Source: a virus. From it: a stretch of 64,000 nucleotides of DNA. Below the pieces are notes generated by a model, which saw nothing but the letters and a program-made list of their open reading frames with translations, was not told where the DNA came from and did not search any database. Location: positions 1-64,000 of the IMG/VR virus record IMGVR_UViG_3300027763_000039; one strand, given 5' to 3'. This document shows positions 2,245 to 21,581 of the stretch, one piece after another. A program made the position numbers and the translations under genes. Numbering within the stretch: position 1 is the first letter of the stretch; every line of letters begins with the position of its first letter.

Positions 2245-2466
2245 ATGAACCTAAGAGAAAGATTAGAACTCCGCGCTGTTATTAACATGATCATTGGCGT
2301 TATTGAAACTCTGGTGAATTTATTTACCAAAGCTCAAGAAAAGTTTGGACCAAAACCTAAAGTTAATCCAGACTCTCCAGTTAAACCCAATAGACCACGA
2401 CCCTTAAAAAGAGTTGTAGATACTATTGATAATATTATACCTCTTCCATGGAGAGATAAGAAATGA
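2245..2466 (+). CDS. Small amphipathic/proline-rich protein, unknown function
   Basis: This encodes 73 residues. The N-terminal half is an amphipathic or weakly hydrophobic helix (AVINMIIGVIETLVNLFTKAQ). The C-terminal half is basic and proline-rich (PKPKVNPDSPVKPNRPRPL), ending in PLPWRDKK. AGGA lies about seven bases before the ATG. The stop overlaps the next start (ATGA). The family is not recognised; the layout fits a membrane-peripheral phage protein. Confidence 0.55.
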   Translation: MNLRERLELRAVINMIIGVIETLVNLFTKAQEKFGPKPKVNPDSPVKPNRPRPLKRVVDTIDNIIPLPWRDKK

Positions 2467-2822
2467 ATAAATTATTTGTTGGTTTATTTTGCGTTAGTTT
2501 ATTATTTACTCAGTCTCACTACTACGGCTCAACAACGGCTCCAGTAACTCTTGCTGGGGGCATTATTAAAGCCAAGCATGTGCAGGAAGTGTCCCACAAG
2601 TATAAAAGAAAAGACTGTCCAGTTTGCAAGGGAAAAGGCTGGTATATGAGTGGAGATGGTATTCTTAAAATTGATTGCACATACTGTGAAGCAGATAAAG
2701 GAACAATTTCCATAGGTCCTATTAAATCATTTAACCCACAAGCCCCTGCTCCAAAAGCATATTCAGCACCAATAAATTGTCCAGACGGCAACTGCCCTCT
2801 TCCTAAAACACTAAGGAGATAA
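2463..2822 (+). CDS. Secreted or membrane-tethered DnaJ-type zinc-finger protein
   Basis: This encodes 119 residues. The first 20 residues (MNKLFVGLFCVSLLFTQSHY) look like a signal peptide, and the Cys at position 10 does not fit a clear lipobox. A zinc site follows: Cys52 and Cys55 in CPVCKGKGW, and Cys72 and Cys75 in CTYC. The first half has the CxxCxGxG pattern of DnaJ zinc repeats, but only one pair of half-sites is present, so it is far shorter than a DnaJ cysteine-rich domain. The C-terminus is proline-rich (QAPAPKAYSAP) with a CPDGNCPL motif. Its function is unknown. A zinc or redox protein acting outside the cytoplasm is a reasonable inference. Confidence 0.6.
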   Translation: MNKLFVGLFCVSLLFTQSHYYGSTTAPVTLAGGIIKAKHVQEVSHKYKRKDCPVCKGKGWYMSGDGILKIDCTYCEADKGTISIGPIKSFNPQAPAPKAYSAPINCPDGNCPLPKTLRR

Positions 2823-2824: not shown

Positions 2825-3223
2825 ATGGCTGATAATGATAAACTTAAAGCTATAGCTATTAAAATTTTAGAGAAATCCAATGTACAGAAAGATGAAGTAT
2901 ATGGTTTTGCTATTGTTACTATTTTAATGATTATTAGTATAGTTCTAACATGCGTGAGAATTTTACAAGAGTGTAATAAAAATAAATTATCAGCTAGTTC
3001 AACAGCTCAAGATAAATACTCTATGTATGGTGAGCAGTTACATACTTTTAGTGAGCGTAGGGGCTGGTTTACAAAAATGAGAATTAAGAAAATTTTACGC
3101 AGAGAAATGAATAGAGAAGATTATGAAAAGTATTCATTGAGCATTTTGAATGCTTTATTAGAAACAGGAGAAGTTCTCACGGATGATGAGATTCAAACCC
3201 TAGTGGAGAATGCCAATGTTTAA
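2825..3223 (+). CDS. Small membrane protein with cytoplasmic tail, unknown function
   Basis: This encodes 132 residues with one clear transmembrane helix at about residues 28-46 (AIVTILMIISIVLTCVRIL). A charged helical tail of about 80 residues follows. A strong AAGGAG lies eight bases before the ATG. Its end overlaps the start of the GlsB-like gene. The family is not recognised. Confidence 0.6.
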   Translation: MADNDKLKAIAIKILEKSNVQKDEVYGFAIVTILMIISIVLTCVRILQECNKNKLSASSTAQDKYSMYGEQLHTFSERRGWFTKMRIKKILRREMNREDYEKYSLSILNALLETGEVLTDDEIQTLVENANV

Positions 3224-3502: not shown

Positions 3503-5062
3503 ATGCTTACACCCAGAGAATTATACAACCAATATACCTCTCAGATATGTAATGATATTCATGGTAAAGGAACGCCATATAACTTGATTAGATTGGTCTA
3601 TTTTCTAAAACATCTAAAAACTCCTTGTTATAGAAAAACTTTAGATCCAGTAGTAGAGAATCCAAATGGAACTAAATCTAAACAAATAGACACCTGGAAC
3701 ACTATCACAAATACTGGCTCAGGAAATCTTGCTGTACCCTTTAAGTTTTTAACCAGAATAGATGCTGAAGCTTTTGAAGAAATTCAACCATCTATGGATA
3801 GCGGAACAGCTTTTGCTGTGCGTAATTCCTGTGATCTTACCAGAGCTTGTAGAATAACAAGCAGTGGTAGTTATAATCTATGGGAATCAAGAATGTCAAC
3901 AGAGTATTTGCAACGTTTTGCTGGCAATTCTCTTCCTGATTGTTTATTGATGTTAGGTCCTGATTTAGTTTCAGAAGAAACTGCCTTGAAAAGAGCCACA
4001 GGTTGCGGAGATTTATCTGGTATTCCTAATACTAAATATAGATCTAAAGACGTAGGAGCAATTGGTGCTCCTCACGGATGTCTCACCGAGAAAGAAACAG
4101 GTAACAAATATTGTGGAAGTTGTGGCATCTGCGATAAAGACCCAGAAGAAGACCCAATAGCATTTGCTAATGATCCTTGTTGTAAATCAGAAAGTTGTGA
4201 AGAAAATATTAATACATGTTGTCATGGCCCATTAACTAATCGTTTTGATTTTACATACATACAGAGATCTGATGATAATTTGTTTGGAGGCACAGTCCAA
4301 ACTGGTTGGGTAGATTCGATATTTAAACACATTGGTATTATTAAAAGAAAAAGTTATGGTGGTTATGCTAACTTTATAGATAGTAGTGGATCCAACTTTT
4401 ATGCTTGTCCTGACAATATATTCCTAAAATATATGCAGGACCAAAATGGATATAACTATACGAAAGACACATCAGCTATTGGAACTATTGATAGAATTAG
4501 AACCATATGTGGACTATTTGGTGATACACAAACCATTGTTAATAATATCAAAGATTTATTATTTAATGGATATGGAGTAGTATTATTTACTAATGTTGGC
4601 TTTCCTGATATTAGAGATTCTACTGGTTTGAGTTATCCAGATCGCAATTGGTATCATACTTATTCTATTATAGGTTATGATGATCGTAAAATTGAATTTA
4701 AAGAATGTGTATTTTTATTAGCTAATAGTTGGGGAGAGTGGAATTCTGGAGGTAATCCTACTTGGGGACCGATTCCGCCAGGAAGTTTTTTGATAACTGA
4801 AAGTCATTTAAAATGTATGCTATACTTTAATAGGGCTCCGGATTTTAAAATGTGTCGTCCAGACGATGCTGATCCTCAAAGTGGTTGTACAGAAGATGAT
4901 GCCTGCGTTCCATTTGAATGCTTTGATAAACAAAGAGCTTTTGGTTTAGCCTTTGCTCTTTCTATGGGAGAAGGATTTCTTCTTCAAAAACTAGATTATG
5001 ATCAATTTACTAAGCCTATTTTACCAGCAAGTGATGGAAAATTACTTTACTTTAATCCATAA
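3503..5062 (+). CDS. Papain-like fold protein, probable catalytically dead paralogue
   Basis: This encodes 519 residues and is clearly related to the protease at 1240. The two share LTPRELY, RNSCDLTRA, FNGYGVVLFTNVGF and ANSWGEWNSGG...WGPIPPGSF. His385 (NWYHTYS) and Asn408 (LANSWGEW) are kept. Where the other protein has the catalytic Cys (GDCVSHG), this one reads MDSGTAFA, with Ser100 and Gly101, so the nucleophile appears lost. A cysteine-rich insertion at about residues 190-250 (CGSCGICDKD, DPCCKSESC, NTCCHG) may bind metal or form disulfides. The start has no strong ribosome binding site. It may be a binding or structural module; a serine-type nucleophile at Ser100 cannot be excluded. Confidence 0.7.
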   Translation: MLTPRELYNQYTSQICNDIHGKGTPYNLIRLVYFLKHLKTPCYRKTLDPVVENPNGTKSKQIDTWNTITNTGSGNLAVPFKFLTRIDAEAFEEIQPSMDSGTAFAVRNSCDLTRACRITSSGSYNLWESRMSTEYLQRFAGNSLPDCLLMLGPDLVSEETALKRATGCGDLSGIPNTKYRSKDVGAIGAPHGCLTEKETGNKYCGSCGICDKDPEEDPIAFANDPCCKSESCEENINTCCHGPLTNRFDFTYIQRSDDNLFGGTVQTGWVDSIFKHIGIIKRKSYGGYANFIDSSGSNFYACPDNIFLKYMQDQNGYNYTKDTSAIGTIDRIRTICGLFGDTQTIVNNIKDLLFNGYGVVLFTNVGFPDIRDSTGLSYPDRNWYHTYSIIGYDDRKIEFKECVFLLANSWGEWNSGGNPTWGPIPPGSFLITESHLKCMLYFNRAPDFKMCRPDDADPQSGCTEDDACVPFECFDKQRAFGLAFALSMGEGFLLQKLDYDQFTKPILPASDGKLLYFNP

Positions 5063-5068: not shown

Positions 5069-8000
5069 ATGTCTCAATCAAACTGGTGCAATACTGATAA
5101 TTGGTTTACTGATCAAAAATTTACACAACAAAGTCCCAAGATACCTGTTGACACAATTGATGATGCTGACATACAAGCACATGACTATACTTACTCTATA
5201 ATAGATAGTACGTGTTTTGGTAAAATGCCATTTTTAAAATGCAATAATCTTAATATTGTTGTGGCTACTGGGAATGTTATGGGTGGAGGAGGTTTAACTT
5301 TTTCTTGTGCTAATTTATCAGCTAATAATGTTACTATAGGTCTACAAAATATTACCTGCCAGCATTGGGACAACACAGAGTTTTGTAATTGGGATATCTC
5401 CACACTAAAGACACTTCCTAATCATAAAACAACCTATCTAAATAAATTAGTTTTTAATAATCTTAATTCTGGATCCTTAGATCATACAGTTATTAATCAG
5501 TGCTATATAAAATCTAATACTCTAGAACTAGATCACTGCGATATTGAAGGAACAGACGATATACGAACTTTTATGTCTTGTTCTAGTGGGTCAGTAATTA
5601 ATACTAAAACAAATGCAACAAAAGATAAAGTATTCTGGGAAGGCGATTTTTGGGTTTCTGGAGAAACTATCGAGTCTACTACTATACGGGGTAGTGGAAA
5701 AGGAACATTTGATTTTACTCGATCCATGAATTATGCAGCAATTGATGGAGATACCAAGTTCGGAAATGCTGCTAAAAATTATGGTAAATTATATGGAAAT
5801 CCTATTTTCTCAGGTGGATCTCATAATTTTGGAATAATAGTTGGTGATTGTATTTTTAGTGGAGATAATAGTTGTAATTATGGAACTATTTCTGGAGCTA
5901 GTGTTTTTATTAGTGGAGCTTTAAATAGAGGAACTATTACTAGGTCATCAATTTTTTATTCTGGAACATCTAATTATGGTAACTTGAAAGATTCTTCTTT
6001 GTTTTATTATGCTAATAATCATGGAATATTGAACAATGGTTCTAAATTTATTTGTTCAGATAATAATGGACCAATTACTAGTGGGGATGTAATTTTTATA
6101 AGTGGTACAAATCGTACTACCCTGACTACATCGGGAAATATTAGCTTTAACAGTGGATGTCAAAATTTTGGCAATCTACCCTCCCCTTCTGCACAAGTTA
6201 GTTTTGATTTCTATTCAGTTAATACTCAAGGAACTATTGACAGTAGTGGTTTTGTTACATTTGGTACGGGTTGTGTTAATTTAGCACAAATAAAGAATGG
6301 TTTGTTTAGTAGTACGGCGCAAAATAATGGCACAATTTTAATGAATAGTATTTTTAAAGATTTTGCTTGCAATTATGAAACAATATCAACTGGATTATTT
6401 TATGATTCATCTGTTAATAGTGGAACCATTAATTCTCTAGGAACATTTTATAATTCATCTATTAACGATAAGGGCTCAATTATCAAACAAACAGGAATAT
6501 TTTACGACTTATCTATTAATAGTGGATCTATAGACTATGGATTTTTTCATGATAATAGTATTAATAGCTCAGGATCAGATGTAAAAATTTTAAAGAGTGG
6601 TATGTTTTATAATTCATCAAAAAATTATGGATATGTTGCCAGTGTTTTATTTTATGATAATACTAGTAATAATTCTGGTGCTGTAGTTGGTACAGGAGTA
6701 TTCTTTTCTAATTCTCTTAATGCTAGTGGGGCTATTGTTAGAAAATTAGCTTATTTTAGTGGTAACAGCATTAATTATGGAGATAAATTTTTTGGTGAAA
6801 ATTTTGATTGTACTTTTAGTGAAAATGCTAGTAATAATGGTTATATTGGAAATAATTTAATGGTTGTTTTTTCTGGCTATGCTTCTAATGGAAATTATGT
6901 AAAAAATGCTCAGTTCAGAGATTTTGCACAAAATGACACTATGGGAACCGGATATAATTTAAGTTTTTATAGTGGGTCCTTTAATAAAGGATATATTGAT
7001 CGTAGCGGATCGTTTTATGATCGCTCTATGAATTTAAATGAAGGAGTAATAGTTGATGCTGTTTTTTATAACTTATCCACTAACGGTAGTTCCATGAGAC
7101 GGCCTTTGGTTTCTGGTTATGGATTTTTAACATCTGGAGATCGTAAGTTACTAATAACAGATAAGGCCAAAAATCAAGGCTTATTAGATAATGTTGATGC
7201 GACCTTCACTATTTCTGGTATTAATGAATCACCAATAACATGGAATTTTAATAAATTATTGATTTTTACTTCATCAGGTATATACAACACTGGAACTACC
7301 CCATACTCTTTTGTGCCAACAGGTGCTTTTTTATTAAGTTATAGTGGAGCAAATATTCCTAAACTTAGTTTTAGTGGATATTCAATTAATCAAGCAGATA
7401 TAATTGGATATAAAACTGTTTCTTTCAACGAAAACGCTAAAAATTATGGGTCTATTTCAACATATCCTCCTGTTCCTAAAGATAGTGATTGCGTAAGTTT
7501 TTCTGGCGGATATAATTATGGGCCTATTCAAAATGCCTGTAATTTTTCTTATAGTTCTGTGCATTATGGAACAATATTTTTTGCAAAATTTGATAACAGC
7601 ACTAATTCGGGAACAGTTGCAGATTCTGGATTATTTATTAATTCTGTTAATTATGGTAATGTTAATGTAGGATCTTTTATAAGCGGTATTAATAGTGGAA
7701 CTGTTAACATTGGTATTTTTAACTTTTCTGACAATTATGAGCGTGTCAATATTGCATATTTTCCTGTAAGTGGTACAAACACTGTATCTGGAATTATTTC
7801 AAATTCAGGATCATTTGGTAGTAAATCTGAAAATAAGAGTATAATTACATCTCCAATATTAACTTTCAGCTATGACGCAAAAAATAATGGTAGAGTAATG
7901 GAAGCATATTTTTCTGGAACAGCTATTAATGATAGTTCTGGGAGCATCATAGGAAATGGAGATTTTTTTGGTTCGTCCAGCAATATTGGAAATCAAGTAT

Positions 8001-9010
8001 TTACATTAAATTTTCATGAGCTTTCTACTAATCAGTCTAATTCAACAGGTAATTTTAAGTTTTACGATACATCTAAAAATAGTGGAATTTTAACAGGAAA
8101 AACAATATTTTTAAATAATAGTGAAACCAACGGACAGTGTTTTGGCGATGTTTCATTATATGATTCAACCACAAACAAAGGTTTACTGTCAGGAACCATA
8201 CTCCTACAAGGATCTGGATCCAATCCACCGACTAATCGTGCTTTAATAATAGGAAATGGAAATGTTCTATTGGTATTAGCTGAAAATTTTGGAACCATAA
8301 ATGGTAATAGTCTTTTTACATCAGGTATTAATAAAGGATATATTGAAAAAGGATCATTTTTCTTTGATAGTTCTAATGCTGCTAATGGAACGGTTTCAGG
8401 AGAATGTAAATTCTATAATAGTTCAGTAAATCTAGGAACTGCCTCAACATATGCATTTTTTTATAATAGCGGATATAATTTAGGCACTGTATCTACAGGA
8501 ATATTTAATAATGAATCAAACAATAATGGAACAACAAATATTGGATTATTCTATAATAATGCAAAAAATTCTGCAATAGTAAATTCTGGTGAATTTCACG
8601 ACTCTTCTTACAATGATTTTTCAGGACACGATATTTCAATTGCTTTCTTGTATGATGACTCTGTTAACTATGGATCTATTAATAATGCATATTTTGAAAA
8701 TAATTCAATTAATACTGGAACAGTATCATTAGGAACTTTTAATAATGGAGCAAAAAACATTGGAACAATAGAAGGAAATGGTATTTTTAACAATAGCACC
8801 AATAGAGGATCCATTAAAGGCTACGCAACATTTAACAGCTCAAACTGTACAGCAGGCACTATTGATAACGATGCCCTGTTTACAAATAGTAGTTTTTGTT
8901 CTAATACTACAATTAATGGATCAGCTACTTTTAATAGTGGATCATGTTATGATAAAAATACGACTACTATAAGAGGAAATATCACAAAGCCAGAAAATTG
9001 TAATCCATAG
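5069..9010 (+). CDS. Giant Asn/Ser/Gly-rich solenoid repeat protein, possible adhesin or fibre
   Basis: This encodes 1313 residues. From about residue 230 to the end it consists of several dozen degenerate repeats of roughly 16-20 residues with a core like N-x-G-x-I-x(5)-F-x-x-S. Examples are NSGTINSLGTFYNSSI, NYGTISGASVFISG and NIGTIEGNGIFNNSTN. The regular spacing of the Gly, Ile/Val and Phe positions fits a beta-helix. The N-terminal 200 residues differ, with several cysteines and Trp. The C-terminus ends in a cysteine pair (GSCYDK, PENCNP). No membrane anchor or signal peptide is seen. The gene begins six bases after the pseudo-protease. I infer a virion fibre or surface-binding protein; no known family could be named. 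Confidence 0.65.
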   Translation: MSQSNWCNTDNWFTDQKFTQQSPKIPVDTIDDADIQAHDYTYSIIDSTCFGKMPFLKCNNLNIVVATGNVMGGGGLTFSCANLSANNVTIGLQNITCQHWDNTEFCNWDISTLKTLPNHKTTYLNKLVFNNLNSGSLDHTVINQCYIKSNTLELDHCDIEGTDDIRTFMSCSSGSVINTKTNATKDKVFWEGDFWVSGETIESTTIRGSGKGTFDFTRSMNYAAIDGDTKFGNAAKNYGKLYGNPIFSGGSHNFGIIVGDCIFSGDNSCNYGTISGASVFISGALNRGTITRSSIFYSGTSNYGNLKDSSLFYYANNHGILNNGSKFICSDNNGPITSGDVIFISGTNRTTLTTSGNISFNSGCQNFGNLPSPSAQVSFDFYSVNTQGTIDSSGFVTFGTGCVNLAQIKNGLFSSTAQNNGTILMNSIFKDFACNYETISTGLFYDSSVNSGTINSLGTFYNSSINDKGSIIKQTGIFYDLSINSGSIDYGFFHDNSINSSGSDVKILKSGMFYNSSKNYGYVASVLFYDNTSNNSGAVVGTGVFFSNSLNASGAIVRKLAYFSGNSINYGDKFFGENFDCTFSENASNNGYIGNNLMVVFSGYASNGNYVKNAQFRDFAQNDTMGTGYNLSFYSGSFNKGYIDRSGSFYDRSMNLNEGVIVDAVFYNLSTNGSSMRRPLVSGYGFLTSGDRKLLITDKAKNQGLLDNVDATFTISGINESPITWNFNKLLIFTSSGIYNTGTTPYSFVPTGAFLLSYSGANIPKLSFSGYSINQADIIGYKTVSFNENAKNYGSISTYPPVPKDSDCVSFSGGYNYGPIQNACNFSYSSVHYGTIFFAKFDNSTNSGTVADSGLFINSVNYGNVNVGSFISGINSGTVNIGIFNFSDNYERVNIAYFPVSGTNTVSGIISNSGSFGSKSENKSIITSPILTFSYDAKNNGRVMEAYFSGTAINDSSGSIIGNGDFFGSSSNIGNQVFTLNFHELSTNQSNSTGNFKFYDTSKNSGILTGKTIFLNNSETNGQCFGDVSLYDSTTNKGLLSGTILLQGSGSNPPTNRALIIGNGNVLLVLAENFGTINGNSLFTSGINKGYIEKGSFFFDSSNAANGTVSGECKFYNSSVNLGTASTYAFFYNSGYNLGTVSTGIFNNESNNNGTTNIGLFYNNAKNSAIVNSGEFHDSSYNDFSGHDISIAFLYDDSVNYGSINNAYFENNSINTGTVSLGTFNNGAKNIGTIEGNGIFNNSTNRGSIKGYATFNSSNCTAGTIDNDALFTNSSFCSNTTINGSATFNSGSCYDKNTTTIRGNITKPENCNP

Positions 9011-9063: not shown

Positions 9064-9531
9064 ATGAGACCAAACTGGCAAGAATATTTCATAGGGCTGG
9101 CACATGCTGTTGCTGCTCGTAGTCACGACATTCAAACTCAGCATGGCTGTATTATTACTGACCATAATAACAGGATTTTAGGATTAGGATATAATGGTTT
9201 TCCAAAAGGACTTGATGATACAAAACTCCCTAATACTAGACCAGAAAAATATCCTTGGATGATACATGCAGAACGTAATGCTTTATCAAATTGCACCATT
9301 AGACCAGATAATGGAATAGCTTATGTAACTGGCCAATGTTGTAATGATTGCATAATGGCACTTTGGCAAGAAGGAATTACTAAAGTTTATATGAGAAAAA
9401 ATCATGGAACACATTTATTTGATCAGGAACAACAAAAAAGATTTGAGTTATTCATAGGAATGAGTGGCCTTAGTGTAGAATATATAAACCCCGATTTATC
9501 CTGGCTAGAAAGATTGGTCAATAATGCTTAA
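9064..9531 (+). CDS. dCMP deaminase (zinc-dependent cytidylate deaminase family)
   Basis: This encodes 155 residues. It likely converts dCMP to dUMP for dTMP synthesis. The N-terminus MRPNWQEYFIGLAHAVAARS is typical of dCMP deaminases. The zinc and proton-transfer motif HAERNAL lies near residue 69, and the second zinc pair is in GQCCNDCIMALW near residues 93-97. There the usual Pro of PCxxC is replaced by Cys, giving CCNDC; the two zinc cysteines remain. It stands at the head of the sugar and methyl transfer genes and overlaps the next gene by eight bases, although its job belongs with the RNR and dNMP kinase further downstream. Confidence 0.88.
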   Translation: MRPNWQEYFIGLAHAVAARSHDIQTQHGCIITDHNNRILGLGYNGFPKGLDDTKLPNTRPEKYPWMIHAERNALSNCTIRPDNGIAYVTGQCCNDCIMALWQEGITKVYMRKNHGTHLFDQEQQKRFELFIGMSGLSVEYINPDLSWLERLVNNA

Positions 9532-10126
9532 ATTTAGATACGACGTTATTAACCACTTTATTAACAAATATAATTTGATCAAATATTTAGAAATTGGGGT
9601 CTTTAATGGAGAAAACTTTAGAGAAATCCGAGCTCCTCTTAAGCATGGTGTTGATCCAGGATCAGAAGGGGTGGTAGCCAAAGAAGTCACCCACCCATAT
9701 ACGTCTGATCGTTTTTTTGAGTCTCTAGATAAAGATTATTTGTATGATATTATATTCATAGACGGTCTTCATCACGCTGATCAAGTAGCTAAAGACATTA
9801 AAAATTCACTTAAGCATGTAATCGCCAACGGGTTTATTATTCTTCACGACTGCTTGCCTCCAGACTACGATCATCAAGTTGTTCCAAGAAAACAAACTTT
9901 TTGGACAGGAGATGTATGGAGAGCTTTCGTGGGATTTAAACAAGCTAATTCTCTATTCTCTTGTGTCGTGGATATGGATTTTGGTGTGGGTATTATCAAA
10001 AATAATCCAGATATAGAATACAAAGATTTCTCTCCCACTACTATGTCTTATGAGGAATTTGCAAACAATTCTAAAGAGCTATTAAATTTGATTTCTTACC
10101 AAGAGTTTATTAGTAGTGATATATGA
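9524..10126 (+). CDS. Class I SAM-dependent methyltransferase (Methyltransf_24-like)
   Basis: This encodes 200 residues. Motif I is YLEIGVFNGENF near residues 21-32. An acidic post-I residue is in HGVDPGSEG, and the family signature IIFIDGLHHADQVAKDI is followed by GFIILHDCLPP. This subfamily commonly sits in surface polysaccharide clusters and methylates sugars. The substrate is unknown. It overlaps the gene before by eight bases and the glycosyltransferase after by four, which supports a joint glycan-modifying role. Confidence 0.8.
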   Translation: MLKFRYDVINHFINKYNLIKYLEIGVFNGENFREIRAPLKHGVDPGSEGVVAKEVTHPYTSDRFFESLDKDYLYDIIFIDGLHHADQVAKDIKNSLKHVIANGFIILHDCLPPDYDHQVVPRKQTFWTGDVWRAFVGFKQANSLFSCVVDMDFGVGIIKNNPDIEYKDFSPTTMSYEEFANNSKELLNLISYQEFISSDI

Positions 10127-10761
10127 TCTCATATTGTACTATAGTTTATCAAGAACAAGATGAGATTATTCGTCTTTTGAAACAAATTAAAACTATCTCT
10201 ACAAAAGAAGATGAGATTGTTGTAATTCAGTCATATAGAGATGAAGAAGAAAAACAATCAGAATGGTATCAATCCATCAGACAGTCTATTCTAGAATTTA
10301 CTGATGTTATTTACGGAGATTTTCATTTTCATAAAAATTTTTCAGAAATGAAAAATTACATGGCTTCTCTAGCTACCAAAGATTATATTTTTAATTTAGA
10401 TGCAGATGAGTATATGCTAGATCAGGCATATTCTATTATTAACAATATCTTGTTAGAAAATCCTAAAGTTGATTTGTATTATTTACCCAGAATAAATACT
10501 GTTGAAAATATTACTCAAGAGGATATTGATCACTGGGGATGGAATTTAAATGAATTTGGATGGATAAACTGGCCTGATTATCAGCCACGCATCTATAAAA
10601 ATAACCAACAAATTAAATGGACTGGTCTAGTTCATGAGCATTTATCTGGTCATACAAACTATGCCACAGTAGCTTCTGATCCTAAGTTGGCTATTATTCA
10701 TAATAAGGATATTAACAAACAAAAACAGCAAAATGAATTATATAGAAGAATTATACAATGA
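10123..10761 (+). CDS. Family 2-like glycosyltransferase (GT-A fold)
   Basis: This encodes 212 residues. The N-terminus ISYCTIVYQEQDEI resembles the opening strand of GT2 enzymes. The metal and sugar-nucleotide motif appears as FNLDADEYML near residues 86-95 (Asp-Ala-Asp). A late segment RIYKNNQQIKWTGLVHEHLSG is typical of the TPR-less SunS-like or lipopolysaccharide glucosyl-transferring GT2 group. It probably transfers a sugar from a nucleotide donor. It overlaps both neighbours by four bases. Confidence 0.78.
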   Translation: MISYCTIVYQEQDEIIRLLKQIKTISTKEDEIVVIQSYRDEEEKQSEWYQSIRQSILEFTDVIYGDFHFHKNFSEMKNYMASLATKDYIFNLDADEYMLDQAYSIINNILLENPKVDLYYLPRINTVENITQEDIDHWGWNLNEFGWINWPDYQPRIYKNNQQIKWTGLVHEHLSGHTNYATVASDPKLAIIHNKDINKQKQQNELYRRIIQ

Positions 10762-11351
10762 AAAATATAGTACAAATAGGAGCTTGTCAGGGGAAAGATC
10801 ATGTTCTGGATGTTATATCTAATGGATCCACCGAAATCACGGCACACCTAATTGAGCCTCTCCCAAAAAACTTTGATTTATTGATAAACAATTATGAAAA
10901 TATAGCAACAAAAAATAATAGTATTCAATTTTATAATTGCGCAATATCAACACATACTGGTAAGCTTGTGCTTTATTACCAAAAAGAAGTTAAAAACAAC
11001 ACACAGGACGAACATTGTTCTTTTAGTTATAACCATTTGTTGGCCCATGGACATGAAGGTAACATAGAAAAAATAGAAGTACAATGCTATACCTTGCTTG
11101 ATTTTATAAATCATTTTAATATCTCTAAGACTATCGATCATCTTTATATTGATACTGAGGGACATGATTGTGATATATTATTAAGTACTAATTTTGATGA
11201 TTTAGATATAAAAAATATTACTTTTGAAATCTCACATAGTGACGGAGCCTTTTCCAAAGGCACTAAACTACAACAAACCAAAGACCACCTACAACACCAT
11301 AAGTATTCTATAATCAATGACAATGGCCTTGATATTACGATGAGTAAATAA
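10758..11351 (+). CDS. FkbM family methyltransferase
   Basis: This encodes 197 residues. It opens with IVQIGACQGKDHVLD, a SAM-binding loop of FkbM type. This is followed by AHLIEPLPKNF, FYNCAIS, a central SFSYNHLL, the VQCYTLLDFI segment and IDHLYIDTEGHDCDIL with the characteristic Asp-Thr-Glu-Gly. FkbM enzymes O-methylate sugars and natural products. It lies between a glycosyltransferase and a second methyltransferase, in overlapping frames, so a sugar is the most likely substrate. Confidence 0.82.
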   Translation: MKNIVQIGACQGKDHVLDVISNGSTEITAHLIEPLPKNFDLLINNYENIATKNNSIQFYNCAISTHTGKLVLYYQKEVKNNTQDEHCSFSYNHLLAHGHEGNIEKIEVQCYTLLDFINHFNISKTIDHLYIDTEGHDCDILLSTNFDDLDIKNITFEISHSDGAFSKGTKLQQTKDHLQHHKYSIINDNGLDITMSK

Positions 11352-11354
11352 TTT

Positions 11355-11927
11355 ATGGATTATTTTAATTACAGTATTGATGGTCAATGTGATTACTATG
11401 ACCTATACGACCTTATTCTTTGCAAAATGCCTCAAAACTTTAAGTTTGCGGAGATAGGAGTTGGTAAAGGTAAAAGTTTAGCATTTCTTATAGTACATTC
11501 TTTGTTTTTGGAAAAGCGTGGACAAATATTTGCTATAGATAGTTGGGAAGGTTTTAAAGAGAATATGGATCCAGATAGTCCTTTTTTTGAACCCATATTA
11601 CAAGAAAATTCTGACGCTCTATATCATCTATTTTTGAAGAACATCTCTCCAGTCAAAACTCTAATTACTGTAACGAGGGGAAATATAATAAGTTCTGCTA
11701 AATCCTTTGATAATAATTCCCTAAATGCTATCTTTATTAAGACTAGCCACAATTATGAAGAGGTTCTAAAAGACTTAATAGCATGGTATCCAAAGAAAAT
11801 TGAAAATGGTATTTTTTGTGGACATGATTATATTTCACCAGGGATAAGAAAAGCAGTAGATGAATTTGCTATATTAAACAATCTCAAAAGTAGTCTTATA
11901 GGAAGCACAAGCTGGATCATCCAATGA
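11355..11927 (+). CDS. SAM-dependent methyltransferase-like protein with altered motif
   Basis: This encodes 190 residues. The SAM-binding region is FAEIGVGKGKSLAFL, followed by IFAIDSWEGF. The later family motif, normally of the form hhDxxHxYE, reads AIFIKTSHNYEEVLKDL, so the conserved Asp is Lys. The final part GIFCGHDYISPGIRKAV is typical of this group. The substitution may lower or remove activity, or change the substrate. It is coupled to the next gene by an ATGA overlap. Confidence 0.7.
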   Translation: MDYFNYSIDGQCDYYDLYDLILCKMPQNFKFAEIGVGKGKSLAFLIVHSLFLEKRGQIFAIDSWEGFKENMDPDSPFFEPILQENSDALYHLFLKNISPVKTLITVTRGNIISSAKSFDNNSLNAIFIKTSHNYEEVLKDLIAWYPKKIENGIFCGHDYISPGIRKAVDEFAILNNLKSSLIGSTSWIIQ

Positions 11928-12679
11928 ATAATTTACTATTTCATTTTTATTGCAAAAAACACCCAATGACAACCTATGCTATAGAGCAACTGTCTAAACA
12001 CCTATACATATTTGATGGATATAAGCATATTAGTATATCAATACCATCAAACTATACAGAAGAAGATTATGAAGTATTACTATGTATACTTGAGAAGTTT
12101 GATAAAACCTGTCTAATTACCACTTGTTTGAACGATCCAAAAATAAGAGAAGGCAAAACATTCTATACTTCTCATCTTCCACTATTGTCTAAGCATATTG
12201 AAAATAAGACATTATCAGATGATGACTATACTTTTTATGGACATAGCAAAGGCAATAGTCATGAGACTGGAAGTTTTGGAATATCTTGTTGGGTTAAATT
12301 TCTATGGAAATACAATATAGAACTATTTTATAGTAAAGTTAAGCCACATTTTGGCAATTACAAATTTATTGGTGTTAATAAAACTAAAGGAACGACCAAT
12401 TTTCCATTATCGGGGTTTCCTCCATTCCATTATCAAGGTACTTTTTATTGGTTTCAAACAAAAATACTACAAAAAAATAATTGGAATAAACAAACTGGAC
12501 ACATATTAGATGTAGAGATGTGGCCTGGTTATATGGTAGACACAAAAGAAGCTTTAAATGTTTATATCCCAACTAAAGAAGATGGCACCGAGATAGACTG
12601 TATTCATTTTTATGAGACTAATAATGAACTTAAAAAAATATGTGAAAAAATATTAAATGACAATGAAAATCTTTTATAG
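11924..12679 (+). CDS. Glycosyltransferase-like protein with FYGHSKG motif (paralogue of 13352)
   Basis: This encodes 251 residues. It shares an ordered set of motifs with the gene at 13352: FHFYCKKH, HLYIFDGYKHISIS, YTFYGHSKGNSHE, ISCWVKFLWKYNIELFY, YKFIGVN, FHYQGTFYWF and EMWPGYM. The family is not firmly recognised. The YGHSKG block resembles a conserved element (FYAHSKG) seen in some predicted capsular glycosyltransferases. The two copies sit on each side of another predicted transferase inside the glycan block, so a sugar-transfer role is inferred. Confidence 0.6.
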   Translation: MNNLLFHFYCKKHPMTTYAIEQLSKHLYIFDGYKHISISIPSNYTEEDYEVLLCILEKFDKTCLITTCLNDPKIREGKTFYTSHLPLLSKHIENKTLSDDDYTFYGHSKGNSHETGSFGISCWVKFLWKYNIELFYSKVKPHFGNYKFIGVNKTKGTTNFPLSGFPPFHYQGTFYWFQTKILQKNNWNKQTGHILDVEMWPGYMVDTKEALNVYIPTKEDGTEIDCIHFYETNNELKKICEKILNDNENLL

Positions 12680-13355
12680 AATATCTGATCAAGGATATAA
12701 GAAAGTTAAACCTTCATATATCAATAATGAAAATTGTTTAAAAAACTTTTGTCATGTTTTTCATGATCATTTAGATACTCTATCTGTTATAGCAGATAAT
12801 ATTTCTTATGATACGACAAATCTGATTAAAAAGTATATTAAAACTGATATCATACACACATCGATTGGTCATGGAGCAGGAACTTTTAATGTGGCTTTAG
12901 ACAAAGCTCTATCATTGCCTGATGATGAAATAGTTTACTTTGTAGAAAACGACTATCTTCACAAACCACTAGCTCCACAAATTTTATTAGAAGGTTTATC
13001 TTTAGGTCCTTCTTTTGTGACATTATATGATCATCCAGACAAATATTTGGATCCTTCTAATGGAGGTAATCAATTTTGCCAAGGTAACGCAGAAAATACC
13101 AGGGTTTACCTTACTAATTCATGTCATTGGAAAATTACAAATTCAACCACTATGACCTTTGCTAGCAAAGTAGCCACGCTCAAAGAGCACGAAAATATTC
13201 TTAGAAAATGGACAAAAGATAGTTATCCTAATGATTTTCAAATGTTTATAGAGCTAACAAAACAACATGCTTTTCTCATATCTTCTATTCCCGCGTATTC
13301 TACACATGGAGAAACTGCTTGGCTATCTCCTCTAACTAACTGGGATACTATATGA
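12657..13355 (+). CDS. Predicted glycosyltransferase (GT-A-like)
   Basis: This encodes 232 residues, or 230 if it starts at the ATG at 12663, which gives MKIFYRIS and fits a typical first strand better. Features are the loop THIGH-like SIGHGAGTFNVALDKAL and a possible metal motif EIVYFVENDYLHKP near residue 100. It overlaps the preceding gene by up to 23 bases. Similar proteins of this size occur among phage and cyanobacterial predicted glycosyltransferases, but the donor and acceptor cannot be deduced. Confidence 0.6.
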   Translation: MTMKIFYRISDQGYKKVKPSYINNENCLKNFCHVFHDHLDTLSVIADNISYDTTNLIKKYIKTDIIHTSIGHGAGTFNVALDKALSLPDDEIVYFVENDYLHKPLAPQILLEGLSLGPSFVTLYDHPDKYLDPSNGGNQFCQGNAENTRVYLTNSCHWKITNSTTMTFASKVATLKEHENILRKWTKDSYPNDFQMFIELTKQHAFLISSIPAYSTHGETAWLSPLTNWDTI

Positions 13356-14200
13356 TTAATAAATTATACAATTGGATTTATCCAACAAAAACTACCGATA
13401 TCAAACAGACAACAGATTCTGATGTTACCATAGATGGAAAAGTTGAGAATAGTCCTTTATTTAATTTGATTTTTCATTTTCATTGCGTTAGACACGAAAA
13501 GGTTTGTTATTCAATTGCTAAAATAGAACAGCATTTAGAGATATTCAATGGACATAGAATTTTTACCGTATCATCTCCAGACAATAAGTTTTATGATAAT
13601 CCTATTTATAAATTATTGATAGAAAAATTTGCCAAAAAAAATGTTCATATTATTCCTGTTACAAATGATAGTGTCGTTAGAGAAACTCTACATTTTTTTG
13701 ATAAAGCTTGTCCACTACTACATCATCTACTAAAAATCAATAAACAAAATAATAGTTACACATTTTATGGTCATAGTAAAGGATGTACTCACGCAGAAAA
13801 AACTTATTCTATTACTTGTTGGGTAAATACATTATTTAAATATAATCTAGATTTGTTCTACAATAAAATTAAACCAGAATTATTAACCAATCAGTATAAA
13901 TTTGTTGGTTGTTTGAAAAGAACTGGTAGTTCTGGTTTTGGAGCATCATTTCATTATTGTGGTACATTTTTTTGGTTTAATTCCAATATTTTAGATAATC
14001 CTACTTATAGAACACATGAACACAAACTAGGACTAGAAATGTGGCCGGGATACATAGCTAATGATGCTGAGTGTTTATCAGTATTTGATCTTGATAATAT
14101 TGAACCTTATCGTTATGATTATTGGTATAATTTAGTTTATGGTAGAATAATAGATAGGCCAATAACATTTTCTTGTAGTGCAATAGGAGACCAGCTATGA
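13352..14200 (+). CDS. Glycosyltransferase-like protein with FYGHSKG motif (paralogue of 11924)
   Basis: This encodes 282 residues. It has an extra N-terminal segment of about 35 residues, rich in Thr and Asp, before the shared region. That region then follows in the same order as in 11924: FHFHCVRHEKVCYSIAKI, YTFYGHSKGCTHA, ITCWVNTLFKYNLDLFY, YKFVGCLKRTG, FHYCGTFFWF and LEMWPGYIAN. It clearly arose by duplication. The conserved His, Lys, Trp and Glu positions would be the first candidates for function. Start and stop overlap both neighbours by four bases. Confidence 0.6.
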   Translation: MINKLYNWIYPTKTTDIKQTTDSDVTIDGKVENSPLFNLIFHFHCVRHEKVCYSIAKIEQHLEIFNGHRIFTVSSPDNKFYDNPIYKLLIEKFAKKNVHIIPVTNDSVVRETLHFFDKACPLLHHLLKINKQNNSYTFYGHSKGCTHAEKTYSITCWVNTLFKYNLDLFYNKIKPELLTNQYKFVGCLKRTGSSGFGASFHYCGTFFWFNSNILDNPTYRTHEHKLGLEMWPGYIANDAECLSVFDLDNIEPYRYDYWYNLVYGRIIDRPITFSCSAIGDQL

Positions 14201-15015
14201 TTTCAGCAATTGTTCCATCTTTTAAAAATCCTAAGTGTTTAGAAATTTGTATCAAATCTTTTCTTGATACTCAAACAACAGGCTCCGAACTCATATGTAT
14301 AATAGATGGTTTTGCTGATATGTACGAAGAAATGGCTACTAAATATATAGATAATCCTTTGGTTAAATTTGCTGTTAATGAAAAAAATAAAGGTATGCCG
14401 TTCTCTATTAATTTAGGAGCATATTACTCTATTAATCCATGGTTATTAATCCTAAATGACGATAATGTATTTCCTAAAAACTGGGATACTATTTTACTCA
14501 ATCAAATGAATAAAAATCTGGTCATATCTCCCAATCAAATAGAGAGAAATGAAAGCATATTTAATTTTGTCAAATACGATTTTGGCACAATAGATAACTT
14601 TAAATATGAAGATTTCTTAGAAAAAGAACCCTCCTTAAGAGAAGGTGATCATCTTACTAATGATGGGGAAATATTCCCTTTTTGTATCAGTAAAAAACTC
14701 TTCATGGCAGTTGGTGGTTTTGATCTTGTATATCCTTCTCCATTTGTTTGTGATTGGGATTTTTTCTTAAAATTGGAATTATTGGGTATACAATTTTATA
14801 GAACAAGACAATTGAATTTTTATCATTTTGGAAGTATGGCTACCAAAAAGTCTTCTAGTGCAGAAGATGCTGATTATTTTAGGAATAGTGAAAATATTGC
14901 ATCAGAAGTATTTTCACAAAAATGGGGATTTGAGCCAACTATACAAAGACCATCTAATTCTCACAAACCAGATACTACAGAAATTATTAGAGGAATTAAT
15001 TACTATGAAGAATAA
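14197..15015 (+). CDS. Family 2 glycosyltransferase
   Basis: This encodes 272 residues. It opens with ISAIVPSFKNPKCLEICIKS, the classic GT2 first strand and helix. It has NKGMPFSINLG, then the metal-binding WLLILNDDNVFP near residues 90-100, and the acceptor-side VGGFDLVYPSPFVCDWDFFLKL. These are the normal elements of an inverting GT-A enzyme that uses a nucleotide-sugar donor. Its end overlaps the epimerase start by about 11 bases. The epimerase could supply its sugar nucleotide. Confidence 0.85.
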   Translation: MISAIVPSFKNPKCLEICIKSFLDTQTTGSELICIIDGFADMYEEMATKYIDNPLVKFAVNEKNKGMPFSINLGAYYSINPWLLILNDDNVFPKNWDTILLNQMNKNLVISPNQIERNESIFNFVKYDFGTIDNFKYEDFLEKEPSLREGDHLTNDGEIFPFCISKKLFMAVGGFDLVYPSPFVCDWDFFLKLELLGIQFYRTRQLNFYHFGSMATKKSSSAEDADYFRNSENIASEVFSQKWGFEPTIQRPSNSHKPDTTEIIRGINYYEE

Positions 15016-16006
15016 AATTCTTATTACCGGCAATGCAGGACTACTTGGTTCTAATTTAGCCGATTATATTATACAAAATTATCCAAAATATAGTGTCTAT
15101 GGAGTAGATGATCTTAGTGGTGGCTACAAAGAGAATATTAATCCTAGTATCCATTTTTATCAAATGAATATTTTAGACCCAGAATTTGATAATGTTTTTA
15201 GTGCTATTAAACCCGATTATGTCTTTCATCTAGCAGCTTATGCAGCAGAGGGGCTCAGTCCATTTATTAGACAATTTAATTACAACAATAATTTACTATC
15301 AACTGCTCGCGTTATCAATAACTGTATCAAACATGATGTAACAAGATTAGTTTTTACATCTAGTATGGCAGTCTATGGTGATAATCCCACACCTTTTGAT
15401 GAATCTATGAGACAAAAGCCAATAGATCCTTATGGAATAGCAAAGTATGCTTGTGAAATGGATATACAAGTGGCTGGTGAGCAACACGGATTAGACTGGT
15501 GCATTATTAGGCCACATAATGTTTATGGCAGAAAACAAAACATCTGGGACAAATATCGTAATGTTCTTGGAATATGGATGTATCAACACCTAGAAGGTCG
15601 GCCTATTACTATTTTTGGTGACGGTGAGCAGAAGAGGGCCTTTAGCTACATTAACGACAGCGTGGGACCATTGTTTAAAGCAGCTATAGAACCACAAGCT
15701 TCCAAGCAGATTATAAATCTAGGAGGCATTCATGAGTGTTCCATTAACGAAGCCGCAGATGCTTTATTGTCTGTAGTTGGCGGACAAGCGGACAAGATTT
15801 ATTTGGAAGGTAGACACGAAGTTAAATATGCCTACCCAACTTATCAAAAATCTGTTGACATTTTGGGATTTGAGCATATAACATCTCTATCTGATGGCTT
15901 AAGCGACATGTGGACATGGGCAAAAACTCAACCACGACGCTCAAGATTTATCTGGAATCATTACGAAATAGATAAAGGAATATATTCATTTTGGAAAACC
16001 GCATAA
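15005..16006 (+). CDS. NAD-dependent nucleotide-sugar epimerase/dehydratase (extended SDR)
   Basis: This encodes 333 residues from ATG 15005; an earlier in-frame ATG at 14828 lies inside the upstream gene and precedes the Rossmann start. NAD binding is shown by ILITGNAGLLGSNLADYI. Catalytic residues are Ser in FTSSMAVYG and the YxxxK in DPYGIAKYACEMD. FGDGEQKRAFSYINDS is typical of UDP-glucose 4-epimerase-like enzymes. It probably makes an activated sugar for the surrounding glycosyltransferases. Confidence 0.88.
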   Translation: MKNKILITGNAGLLGSNLADYIIQNYPKYSVYGVDDLSGGYKENINPSIHFYQMNILDPEFDNVFSAIKPDYVFHLAAYAAEGLSPFIRQFNYNNNLLSTARVINNCIKHDVTRLVFTSSMAVYGDNPTPFDESMRQKPIDPYGIAKYACEMDIQVAGEQHGLDWCIIRPHNVYGRKQNIWDKYRNVLGIWMYQHLEGRPITIFGDGEQKRAFSYINDSVGPLFKAAIEPQASKQIINLGGIHECSINEAADALLSVVGGQADKIYLEGRHEVKYAYPTYQKSVDILGFEHITSLSDGLSDMWTWAKTQPRRSRFIWNHYEIDKGIYSFWKTA

Positions 16007-16818
16007 AACTTAAGGACATTGTTTCTCGTTCTTTATTTGGTTCTCTGGGAACTATACTAAATGAAGAGCACTTATCTATGTTTTTATCTTTTTCCAAATA
16101 TAATGCTGATTTTCTAAACTCTTTCCCTAAAGTTGTTTATTGTCTCAATGGAAATAAAGAATTAATAGAAGCCTCTCAGAATTTTTTGAGGGAGTTTCTA
16201 ACTACAGATCTTAGCATTATTGCTGTAGAGAATTTAGGACACACATTTGGAACATTTTTTAATGATGGAAAAATCTTTTCTTTTGCTGATGCTTTTGATT
16301 ATGACTACATTTGGAAATTTTCTAATGACGTAGTTGTGACTAAAGATATCTTCAATAAATATATTACTGCGAATAAAGGGTTCTATTACATAAACAATAT
16401 TGGTTATAATGTTTTTAATACATATGATAAGACCAAATTGGTTGAAGTTTTAATGGATCAATCTTTTTATTATCCACAAACAAATTATTACATCATTAAA
16501 AATCATACCAAGTTTTATCCTGATGAAGACCTAATCTATCGGCTAAAAGCAGAACATGAGAATATTAAGAAAGAAAACCCCACTATTCAACCGTGGCACT
16601 CTATTGAGGGTTGTGATTCTGAGCATATGTTGGCCAAAACAGTAGAGAATAATAATCTATCCAAAGAGCATTTATTATCGGAATCTTCAGTAAGAGCAGT
16701 AATAGATTTTATTGATCAACATAAAATACACGATGGCAGTCATAAAAATATTGCCTATTCAGAACTTGGAGGACTTTGCCATCTTCATTATCCCAACCAT
16801 AATTCATACCTGATCTAG
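15991..16818 (+). CDS. Glycan-block protein, possible GT-A-like transferase
   Basis: This encodes 275 residues and overlaps the epimerase by 16 bases. A Rossmann-like strand (FPKVVYCLNGNKELIEAS) and DYIWKFSNDVVVTKDIF near residue 105, where Asp could play the metal-motif role, suggest a distant glycosyltransferase fold. HSIEGCDSEHML and LGGLCHLHYPNHN near the end are His-rich. I cannot place it in a named family. It closes the first glycan block. Confidence 0.5.
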   Translation: MENRIKLKDIVSRSLFGSLGTILNEEHLSMFLSFSKYNADFLNSFPKVVYCLNGNKELIEASQNFLREFLTTDLSIIAVENLGHTFGTFFNDGKIFSFADAFDYDYIWKFSNDVVVTKDIFNKYITANKGFYYINNIGYNVFNTYDKTKLVEVLMDQSFYYPQTNYYIIKNHTKFYPDEDLIYRLKAEHENIKKENPTIQPWHSIEGCDSEHMLAKTVENNNLSKEHLLSESSVRAVIDFIDQHKIHDGSHKNIAYSELGGLCHLHYPNHNSYLI

Positions 16819-16865: not shown

Positions 16866-19058
16866 ATGTCTGCTATTCAAGAATTGCAAAATTATACCTT
16901 TGTTAGTAAGTATGCTCGTTGGCTAGAAGATAAGAATCGCAGAGAAACATGGAAGGAAGCAGTAGACAGAGTGCGACAAATGATGCACTCTAAATATGAT
17001 GAGTTTGGAGTAGCAGAAGATATTGATTGGGCATATGATATGATGTATAAGAAGAAAGTTCTTGGTAGTCAAAGAGCCCTTCAGTTCGGTGGAGACCCTA
17101 TTCTAAAGCGTCATGCTAAAATTTATAATTGCACAGCTAGTTACTGTGATCGTTTAAGATTTTTTCAAGAATGTTTTTGGTTACTATTGTGTGGTTCTGG
17201 CACTGGCTTTAGTGTTCAGAAACATCATGTTTCCAAACTGTCCTCTCTAGAACATGACATTACTCAAGACCAAGCTATTAAGTATGTAATAGAAGATAGT
17301 ATTGAAGGATGGGCTAATGCTTTGGGTGTATTATTAAGTTCTTACTTTAGTAAACCAGTAGAAGAATTCAAGCAATATAAGAATACTCATGTAGTATTTG
17401 ACTATTCAAATATCAGACCAAAAGGTTCTCCACTAGGATCTGGAGTAGGTAAAGCTCCGGGATATGAGCCATTAGCTAATGGTCTAGAAAAAATTCGCAC
17501 TCTATTAGATAAGTGTATTGCCAATGGGCAAAAGAAACTTCGTCCTATTGATGCTTATGATATCGTGATGCACAGTAGTGATGCTGTATTATCTGGCGGT
17601 GTTCGTAGAAGTGCTTCGTTAGCATTGTTTAGTCATGACGATGAAGAAATGGCTAAGGCTAAGACAGGTAATTGGTACATGGAGAATCCACAAAGAGCAC
17701 GAAGCAACAACTCTGCTCTACTTCTAAAAAGTGAAACTACCTTTGAAGAATTTGCTGGACTAATGCAATCTGTTAAAGAGTTTGGCGAACCGGGCTTTAT
17801 CTGGAGCGAATCAACAGAGATGATTTTTAATCCCTGTGTTGAAATTGGTATGTGGCCTATTGATGAGAGCACAGGTAAGAGTGGATGGCAAGGTTGTAAT
17901 CTTTCTACTATTAATTGTTCTAGTGTTGTTGACGAAGAAGATTTTTATGAAAGATGTAAGGCTGCTACAATAATAGGTACTTTACAAGCTGGTTTTACTA
18001 AAATAGAATATCTTGGTAAAACTAGTGAAAATATTTTTGAGAGAGAAGCTTTACTAGGAGTATCTTTAACTGGTACTATGGAGAAGCATGATCTTGTGCT
18101 TACAGAAAAGACATTAACCAAGGGTGCTAAGATTGCTGTTGATACAAATAAGCAGATTTCTAAAAAAATCAATATTAATCAAGCAGCTAGAGTTACGTGT
18201 TTAAAGCCGGAAGGTACATCAAGTAGTATGTTGGGAACATCCTCTGGCATCCACCCACACCACGCCAAACGCTATATACGCCATGTACAGGCCAACATTT
18301 TAGAAGCACCATACCAACACTTCAAGAAAGTAAACCCACAAGCCTGCGAGAAATCGTCGTGGTCTGCAAATAATACTGATGAAGTAGTTAAATTTCCAAT
18401 AGAAGTACCAGATGGTGCTAAGTTGAGAAATCAATTACCAGCAGTAGAAATGCTCTCTGTTGTAAAAGATACTCAGAAGAACTGGGTTCATTCTGGAAAG
18501 AATAGGTCATTATGTACACAGGAATATTTGAGTCATAATGTTAGCAATACTGTAACAGTCAAACCAGATGAATGGGACGCTGTAACAAAGTATATCTACG
18601 ACAATAGAAAATATTTTGCTGGCATATCTTTAATTCCTCAAAGTGGAGATAAAGATTATCCACAAGCTCCATTCACTACTGTTTATACTAGTAGAGAAAT
18701 TGTTAAGGAATATGGCGATGCTGCTTTATGGTGTTCTGGTTTGATTGAACTAGGCTTAAATGCTTTTAATAATAATCTATGGGCAGCTTGTGATTATGTC
18801 AGTTTAAATCAAGCCAAAGAGGATGATGATGAAAACAAACAAAAATTTATCACAAAAATGAAAAATTTCGCTGGTAAGTATTTTGATGGAGATACTAGAA
18901 GACTAACCTATTGTATGAAAGATGTATACAATTGGAAAATCTATTGTGATCTCTATAATAGTTTTCAAAAGGTGGATTATACTCAGTTATTAGAAACAGA
19001 AGACAATACCGCTGGCATAGAAGAAATTAGCTGCGCTGGTGGAGCTTGTTTACTGTAA
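16866..19058 (+). CDS. nrdJ: Class II (adenosylcobalamin-dependent) ribonucleoside-triphosphate reductase
   Basis: This encodes 730 residues, close to the usual size of monomeric class II enzymes. It reduces ribonucleotides to deoxyribonucleotides using coenzyme B12 and needs no oxygen. Cys89 (YNCTASYCD) fits the first redox Cys. Cys324 in FNPCVEIG fits the radical-bearing Cys, with the catalytic Asn and Glu beside it. The C-terminal Cys723 and Cys728 in SCAGGACLL form the shuttle pair. AAGGAG lies six bases before the ATG. No cobalamin riboswitch is visible in the 47-base gap upstream. Together with the dNMP kinase and dCMP deaminase it supplies phage DNA synthesis. Confidence 0.93.
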   Translation: MSAIQELQNYTFVSKYARWLEDKNRRETWKEAVDRVRQMMHSKYDEFGVAEDIDWAYDMMYKKKVLGSQRALQFGGDPILKRHAKIYNCTASYCDRLRFFQECFWLLLCGSGTGFSVQKHHVSKLSSLEHDITQDQAIKYVIEDSIEGWANALGVLLSSYFSKPVEEFKQYKNTHVVFDYSNIRPKGSPLGSGVGKAPGYEPLANGLEKIRTLLDKCIANGQKKLRPIDAYDIVMHSSDAVLSGGVRRSASLALFSHDDEEMAKAKTGNWYMENPQRARSNNSALLLKSETTFEEFAGLMQSVKEFGEPGFIWSESTEMIFNPCVEIGMWPIDESTGKSGWQGCNLSTINCSSVVDEEDFYERCKAATIIGTLQAGFTKIEYLGKTSENIFEREALLGVSLTGTMEKHDLVLTEKTLTKGAKIAVDTNKQISKKININQAARVTCLKPEGTSSSMLGTSSGIHPHHAKRYIRHVQANILEAPYQHFKKVNPQACEKSSWSANNTDEVVKFPIEVPDGAKLRNQLPAVEMLSVVKDTQKNWVHSGKNRSLCTQEYLSHNVSNTVTVKPDEWDAVTKYIYDNRKYFAGISLIPQSGDKDYPQAPFTTVYTSREIVKEYGDAALWCSGLIELGLNAFNNNLWAACDYVSLNQAKEDDDENKQKFITKMKNFAGKYFDGDTRRLTYCMKDVYNWKIYCDLYNSFQKVDYTQLLETEDNTAGIEEISCAGGACLL

Positions 19059-19905: not shown

Positions 19906-20470
19906 TAGATGCTTAATTTTAAACGCTGATTACACTCCACTCGGTATTATCTCTTGGAAAAGAGCATTAGTGTGGTCGTATAGACATGATGAGAATTCTC
20001 ATGTTGGGGTAGAAATTATAGATTTTTATAAGAACGACTATATCTGTGGTGCTAACAATAAAAAAATACCAATACCAGCAGTAGTTAAAACAGCAAAATA
20101 TTTTCGTTTAAATCATCAGGGTGTTAATTTTTCTAGGAAGAATCTATTCATTAGAGACAATTATAGCTGTCAATATTGCGGATGCGAAAAAGACATTAAT
20201 CAATTAACTTATGATCATGTTATTCCTAAGTCTGTTTGGAATAAAAATATAGGTTCTCCAACTTGTTGGACCAATATTGTTACAGCTTGTGTTGAGTGTA
20301 ATCGTAGAAAAGGAAATAGAACACCAAAAGAGGCTAATATGCCCCTTAGAAATTTGCCTATAGTGCCAAATAAAAGTGCAAAGTACTTGCCAGTAAGAGG
20401 ACTGCTTCTTAAGATAAGATCAGATATTCCAGATGAGTGGACTGTATATTTACCAGAGTCATATTTATAA
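19889..20470 (+). CDS. HNH endonuclease
   Basis: This encodes 193 residues. The N-terminus CLILNADYTPLGIISWKRAL is typical of a common phage and bacterial HNH subgroup. The nuclease core has two zinc-binding pairs, CQYCG near residue 92 and CVECNRRKGNRTP near residue 132. These surround the catalytic LTYDHVIPKS. It could be a replication-linked nuclease, a homing nuclease or a packaging helper. It lies between phoH and a zinc ribbon gene, overlapping both. Confidence 0.85.
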   Translation: MQPQNSRCLILNADYTPLGIISWKRALVWSYRHDENSHVGVEIIDFYKNDYICGANNKKIPIPAVVKTAKYFRLNHQGVNFSRKNLFIRDNYSCQYCGCEKDINQLTYDHVIPKSVWNKNIGSPTCWTNIVTACVECNRRKGNRTPKEANMPLRNLPIVPNKSAKYLPVRGLLLKIRSDIPDEWTVYLPESYL

Positions 20471-20823: not shown

Positions 20824-20838
20824 CTAAAGGAAATGTTA

Positions 20839-21578: not shown

Positions 21579-21581
21579 AAC

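Follow-up and report, generated by a model that had tools for sequence, protein, structure and literature searches.

The gene at positions 5069–9010 (+ strand) of the window, the 64,000-base stretch of DNA that was analysed, encodes a 1313-residue repeat protein whose first 600 residues are predicted to form a right-handed β-helix. The protein is probably a virion-borne, single-chain appendage that is mounted by its N-terminus, grips the host, and has a papain-fold pseudoenzyme from the adjacent gene as its partner. Presence in the virion, the attachment end, host binding and the partnership are the parts of this reading that we infer. The window corresponds to bases 1–64000 of the 108,316-base virus record IMGVR_UViG_3300027763_000039, which comes from an uncultivated large bacteriophage, and its relevant features are as follows.

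1240–2166, + strand: papain-like protein that retains Cys, His and Asn, paralogous to the pseudoenzyme; conserved flank
3503–5062, + strand: papain-fold pseudoenzyme, 519 aa, without the catalytic Cys; separated by six bases from the solenoid gene downstream
5069–9010, + strand: β-helix repeat protein (the solenoid), 1313 aa, ATG start; from the open reading frame, repeat profile and model
5069–5683, + strand: N-terminal cap region of the solenoid, aa 1–205, mostly β in the model
5684–8953, + strand: repeat region of the solenoid, about aa 206–1295, rungs of 14–18 residues; from a chained two-block profile
9064–9531, + strand: dCMP/cytidine deaminase-like gene, conserved on the 3' side of the variable pair
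9524–16818, + strand: cluster including methyltransferase-like and glycosyltransferase-like genes; Pfam matches for the first two genes only, the remaining names being read from the sequences

The repeats of the solenoid

The solenoid is composed mainly of Ser, Asn, Gly, Thr, Ile and Phe, and its residue autocorrelation peaks at 15–16, 33 and 47–49 residues. The repeat consensus is N-x-G-x-[IV] followed after 4–6 residues by F-x-x-S/G. A chained two-block profile identified 71 candidate units from about residue 206 to residue 1295, mostly 14–18 residues apart, and the protein may be summarized as about sixty short repeats. The profile score was 874.8, compared to a mean of 502 and a maximum of 542.5 in 100 shuffles for which the profile was refitted. 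Fifty units reached at least 10 bits in the solenoid, and at most 20 did so in any of 100 shuffles. Similarly, the protein contains 33 copies of the pattern N-x-G-x-[IVL], compared to a mean of 3.3 and a maximum of 11 in 2000 shuffles. The Asn/Ser/Gly repeat protein of 1313 residues that the sequence-only reading had described, with its N-x-G-x-I and F-x-x-S positions, is thus a real open reading frame with about 50 strong units. At the DNA level the repeats have diverged, and Tandem Repeats Finder detects one short array only. Within the lineage, Cys7 and Cys49 of the N-terminal cap are conserved. The N-x-S/T sequons are not enriched (42, compared to 37.4 with a SD of 5.1 in shuffles), and sugar decoration of the solenoid is a guess.

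Predicted fold

An AlphaFold2 calculation on residues 1–600 with 13 homologues produced a confident model (pLDDT = 88.5, pTM = 0.78) that is nearly all β and that covers aa 206–600 of the repeat region. Residues 601–1313 lie outside the model and contain the same kind of repeats. A Foldseek search with the model returned nothing at E ≤ 0.001 in the PDB or BFVD. Realignment with VIA-align 2 gave a Z-score of at least 8 to 30 chains, the best of which was TibA (Z = 19.1, RMSD: 2.8 Å over 234 residues). Among the autotransporter adhesins, Antigen 43b (Z = 16.8) and UpaB (Z = 14.0) were further matches; phage proteins scored lower, namely an upper-tail chain of Andhra (Z = 13.9), phi29 gp12 (Z = 12.8) and the CBA120 tailspike (Z = 10.4). 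The entries at the top of the ranking are right-handed β-helices. With a confident model and solved structures of this type as its best matches, the assignment of residues 1–600 as a right-handed parallel β-helix is supported, and the prediction agrees with the β-helix that had been proposed from the repeats. The resemblance to a known fold says nothing on function.

The solenoid resembles TibA, Antigen 43 and UpaB, which gave the best structural Z-scores, in its predicted right-handed β-helical rod. It differs from them in being encoded by a phage, in having neither a C-terminal β-barrel family nor a signal peptide that could be seen, and in its rungs of 14–18 residues that are rich in Asn. 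No type V autotransporter barrel was matched in Pfam or NCBIfam, and the repeats reach almost to the C-terminus. With phi29 gp12 and CBA120 TSP1 the solenoid shares a β-helix within a phage-encoded protein, but these Z-scores are lower and no common anchor, enzyme or chaperone domain was found in Pfam or PHROGs.

Sequence families and spread of the repeat

The solenoid protein had no meaningful match in Pfam, PHROGs, NCBIfam or the sequences of the PDB; the known tail attachment, chaperone and receptor-binding families of PHROGs and Pfam were among those that failed to match. The chlamydial polymorphic membrane protein repeat family of Pfam, with the motifs GGA[ILV] and FxxN, matched neither the window solenoid nor any of 51 members of the repeat family. 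Searches of phages and plasmids with the full protein sequence were also negative, which is weak evidence because the BLAST low-complexity filter probably masks the repeats. The C-terminal part as query gave no match, and the N-terminal 230 residues gave chance-level matches only.

A DNA pattern for consecutive units identified 70 loci in viral contigs. All 70 contain a repeat open reading frame, a count that gives no estimate of frequency since the pattern selects its own motif; the real support at these loci comes from units outside the pattern-matched stretch. The same pattern found nine stretches in bacterial or archaeal genome contigs, at least seven of them with repeat open reading frames, and the repeat is therefore not strictly viral. 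From these loci, the repeat appears to be common in uncultivated phages. Thus, the claim that the protein belongs to no known family holds for Pfam, PHROGs, NCBIfam and the PDB sequences, but not for the repeat itself, which seems widespread.

In other lineages, repeat proteins often start with a W..LGNWW-like sequence and end with GINGSSILG. The latter motif is found at the C-terminus of the solenoids of L006, L009, L010, L019, L029, L063 and others, and is absent from the window record. When an N-terminal profile of the window's lineage was compared with these "NWW" N-termini, no clear relationship emerged: the best match was L039 (E = 4e-7 overall, 0.0045 for the best domain) and the remaining proteins gave E-values above 0.001. 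Nor did the profile clearly reach the genes located after the pseudoenzyme in L097–L101 or the solenoids of L104–L106.

The adjacent papain-fold pseudoenzyme

The products of 3503–5062 and 1240–2166 are paralogues with 38% identity in the alignment. While sequence profiles alone identified nothing in the PDB for the 3503–5062 product, its AlphaFold2 model (pLDDT = 79.7, pTM = 0.85) gave a VIA result in which the best 50 matches were all papain-type (Z = 13.9–16.9), with xylellain at the top (Z = 16.9). The predicted structure is thus that of the papain (C1A) fold. The Cys-His-Asn of an active C1A peptidase is not retained: the catalytic Cys is replaced in all 25 sequences of the pseudoenzyme clade, the His is also missing in five and the Asn in eight. 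In the same table, the four proteins of the 1240–2166 type all have the Cys and His, and three have the Asn. The description of the solenoid gene as lying beside protease genes therefore needs to be divided, as the adjacent gene has a papain fold that has lost its catalytic Cys and the gene at 1240–2166 looks intact.

Plasmodium SERA5 has a papain fold without the canonical Cys and is serine-type. Chains of SERA5 are found among the structural matches of the pseudoenzyme; the organism is unrelated and the resemblance is one of kind only. One study reports the acquisition of xylellain-type C1A peptidases by Caudoviricetes (PMC10380794), and xylellain is the top match here for a protein that, unlike a peptidase of that type, lacks the catalytic Cys. 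Among the papers listed, a literature search found neither an inactive C1A copy coupled to a fibre nor a description of the N-x-G-x-[IV] repeat or of a pseudo-papain with a phage fibre.

Conservation of the pair among relatives

A profile scan with the pseudoenzyme clade yielded 33 loci. The clade is present in 26 of these (L082–L107); the solenoid gene directly follows in 19 of the 26, and the deaminase gene comes next in 16 of the 19. A different gene follows the pseudoenzyme in five loci (L097–L101), and in L103 and L107 the position is taken by a homologue of the window gene at 10123–10761 (glycosyltransferase-like, Pfam). The other seven loci (L108–L114) have the 1240–2166 type only. From the pseudoenzyme stop to the solenoid start, the distance is −8 to 17 bases in the 15 phages measured. 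This adjacency suggests that the pseudoenzyme is most likely a dedicated partner of the solenoid, either an adaptor or a folding helper.

Some loci differ in their surroundings. In L103 (3542–5008) and L107 (6537–7990), homologues of window genes from 20437–24748 are located directly upstream of the pseudoenzyme in a rearranged order. Large open reading frames of 677–746 aa that are absent from the window (L082:5032–7272, L087:5248–7281, L088:5252–7324 and L089:2803–4983) sit between homologues of window 2463–2822 and 2825–3223, and that of L082 contains TGLN-type repeats. Further open reading frames near the locus in L097, L100, L101 and L104–L106 begin with xKISxL...VVVTG, a start that is common in phage fibre proteins; three of these were scanned and one gave a weak tail match (E = 0.0015).

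Variability and exchange

The upstream flanks of the window, L082, L086, L087 and L089 are 94–98% identical. Over the same phages, the identity of the window solenoid to those of L082, L086, L087 and L089 is 64, 39, 39 and 44%, respectively, and that of the pseudoenzyme is 82, 56, 56 and 56%. The dN/dS ratio in four pairs is 0.38–0.53 for the solenoid, 0.09–0.35 for the pseudoenzyme and 0–0.15 for the flanks, a pattern that would reflect rapid amino-acid change and is no proof of positive selection. Pervasive positive selection is not supported, as the solenoid dN/dS is below 1.

The solenoids of L086 and L089 are 85% identical at the N-terminus, decreasing to 28–40% in the last third. The first 675 residues of L089 are like L086 (52–88% per 75-residue block); its last 170 residues are 57–68% identical to the window compared to 26–39% to L086. 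From these alignments, the L089 solenoid is a clear mosaic with an exchanged C-terminal half. In contrast, other pairs of solenoids, such as those of the window and L082, diverge along their whole length.

A similar division emerges from comparisons among 15 phages (66 to 105 pairs). The similarity of the first 220 residues of the solenoid correlates with that of the flanks (ρ = 0.61 for the active-type protease, 0.64 for the deaminase), and that of the last 300 residues does not (ρ = 0.06 and −0.10, respectively), although composition is enough to align repeat-rich sequences at about 30% identity, and such saturation could itself blunt the correlation at the tip. The best reading of these comparisons would be a lineage-specific base with an exchangeable tip. 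The raw correlation between the pseudoenzyme and the solenoid was the highest of those computed (ρ = 0.71). With phylogeny controlled, the partial ρ with the solenoid base was 0.18 for the pseudoenzyme compared to 0.50 for the deaminase; a specific co-evolution of the pair thus does not stand out.

Genomic context and alternative readings

The solenoid gene shares its strand with phage replication genes (UvsX-like, DnaB-like, primase and polymerase) and, as the sequence-only reading had stated, is opposite to the presumed tail genes at 43241–63932. This block is assigned to the tail from a weak tape-measure match at 62844–63932 and from matches to tail fibres later in the record, because its largest open reading frames match nothing. 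Those of 2661, 1856 and 1442 aa at 43241–62831 are without a Pfam match, and the first two are also without a PHROG match. Two giant open reading frames, of at least 4998 aa (L002:1–14995) and 4021 aa (L003:5713–17778), are found on the minus strand of the same record.

The position of the gene apart from the tail operon, on the opposite strand, together with the neck appendage phi29 gp12 among the structural matches, is consistent with the same rod being attached elsewhere, as a fibre or decoration of the capsid or neck. This alternative is unlikely when the repeat genes of other lineages are considered, since these adjoin tail-fibre and minor-tail genes. In a scan that took 78 of 111 neighbours, the families matched by the most members include tail fibre and tail assembly (five members each) and minor tail (four and three members). 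A four-base overlap joins the repeat gene of both L013 and L021 to a homologue of the minor-tail-like protein of the window record itself. Several other lineages have the repeat gene inside the tail gene cluster; in that of the window it is outside.

Ranked just after this, and likewise given a low probability, is a non-virion protein in or on the infected cell, acting in superinfection exclusion or surface masking with the variable sugar-modifying cluster downstream. The solenoid gene does adjoin the cluster at 9524–16818, which differs among relatives, includes the glycosyltransferase-like genes and is a possible modifier. In addition, a small gene in the same strand block (2463–2822) has, by eye, a signal-peptide-like start. 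However, inspection by eye revealed no signal peptide or membrane anchor in the solenoid, and the combination of a lineage-specific base and an exchanged tip is better suited to a fibre.

A tailspike with a depolymerase active site on its β-helix is improbable. The VIA matches include PL6 lyases, chondroitinase B and polygalacturonases, with the polysaccharide lyases at Z = 10–14, but any right-handed β-helix would be expected to match lyases; moreover, no enzyme family was identified in Pfam or PHROGs and the short, regular rungs of 14–18 residues present no obvious catalytic loop. An intracellular or matrix filament resembling bactofilin is very improbable: Pfam Bactofilin (PF04519) matches nine of 51 repeat proteins scanned (best E = 2.9e-6) but not the window solenoid, the matches may only reflect a common G-x-[IV] spacing, and hypervariability is unexpected in a cytoskeletal polymer.

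Proposed role of the locus

The adhesin suggested from the sequence is favored by the hypervariability of the solenoid, the exchange of its distal half and the tail-gene neighborhood of its relatives. Counting against an appendage are the location on the replication and metabolism strand outside the tail operon of its own lineage, the lack of a tail anchor in PHROGs or Pfam, and a dN/dS below 1. In the proposed mechanism, the solenoid would form a right-handed β-helical rod of roughly 60–75 rungs; if each rung rises by 0.48 nm, the rod would be about 30 nm in length. The N-terminal region would attach the rod to the virion, the distal half would grip the host surface, and the pseudoenzyme would serve as an adaptor or folding helper. 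Mutation and recombination would remodel the rod as the flanking genes stay near-identical, and on this basis it is proposed that the locus acts as a host-recognition module. A more specific history is offered tentatively, in which a papain-type protease of a large-phage lineage was duplicated, lost its Cys and became the dedicated adaptor or assembly partner of a rapidly diversifying β-helical adhesin, giving a two-gene host-recognition cassette that is possibly sugar-decorated through the variable genes downstream.

β-Helical adhesins encoded in hypervariable phage loci are already known as a type, and what is new is how large the unannotated repeat family is, together with the conserved pseudo-papain neighbor. 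Pelagimyophages are described as carrying, between conserved modules, a host recognition cluster that is hypervariable and combines tail fibres with glycosyltransferases (PMC7029224). The window is similar in having a hypervariable island, with methyl- and sugar-transfer genes next door that change among relatives. The pelagimyophages are T4-like, whereas the variable pair here is the solenoid and a papain-fold pseudoenzyme. The analysis connects a large and so far unannotated family of repeat proteins in uncultivated phages with a predicted fold and likely role, and it marks the probable host-recognition locus of the lineage, with a pseudo-papain kept alongside. Should the two proteins physically pair, this would represent a new way to mount a variable adhesin on a virion.

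No cultured relative was identified; in the phage collection, the 1240–2166 protease was without a match and the polymerase had distant matches only, at less than 60% identity. The DNA polymerase is split, with the open reading frames at 29023–30897 and 31787–33418 corresponding to successive parts of phrog_405 and a gene for an RNase_T-type exonuclease (31093–31794) between them. The gene at 16866–19058 encodes a ribonucleotide reductase with a B12-dependent insertion domain.
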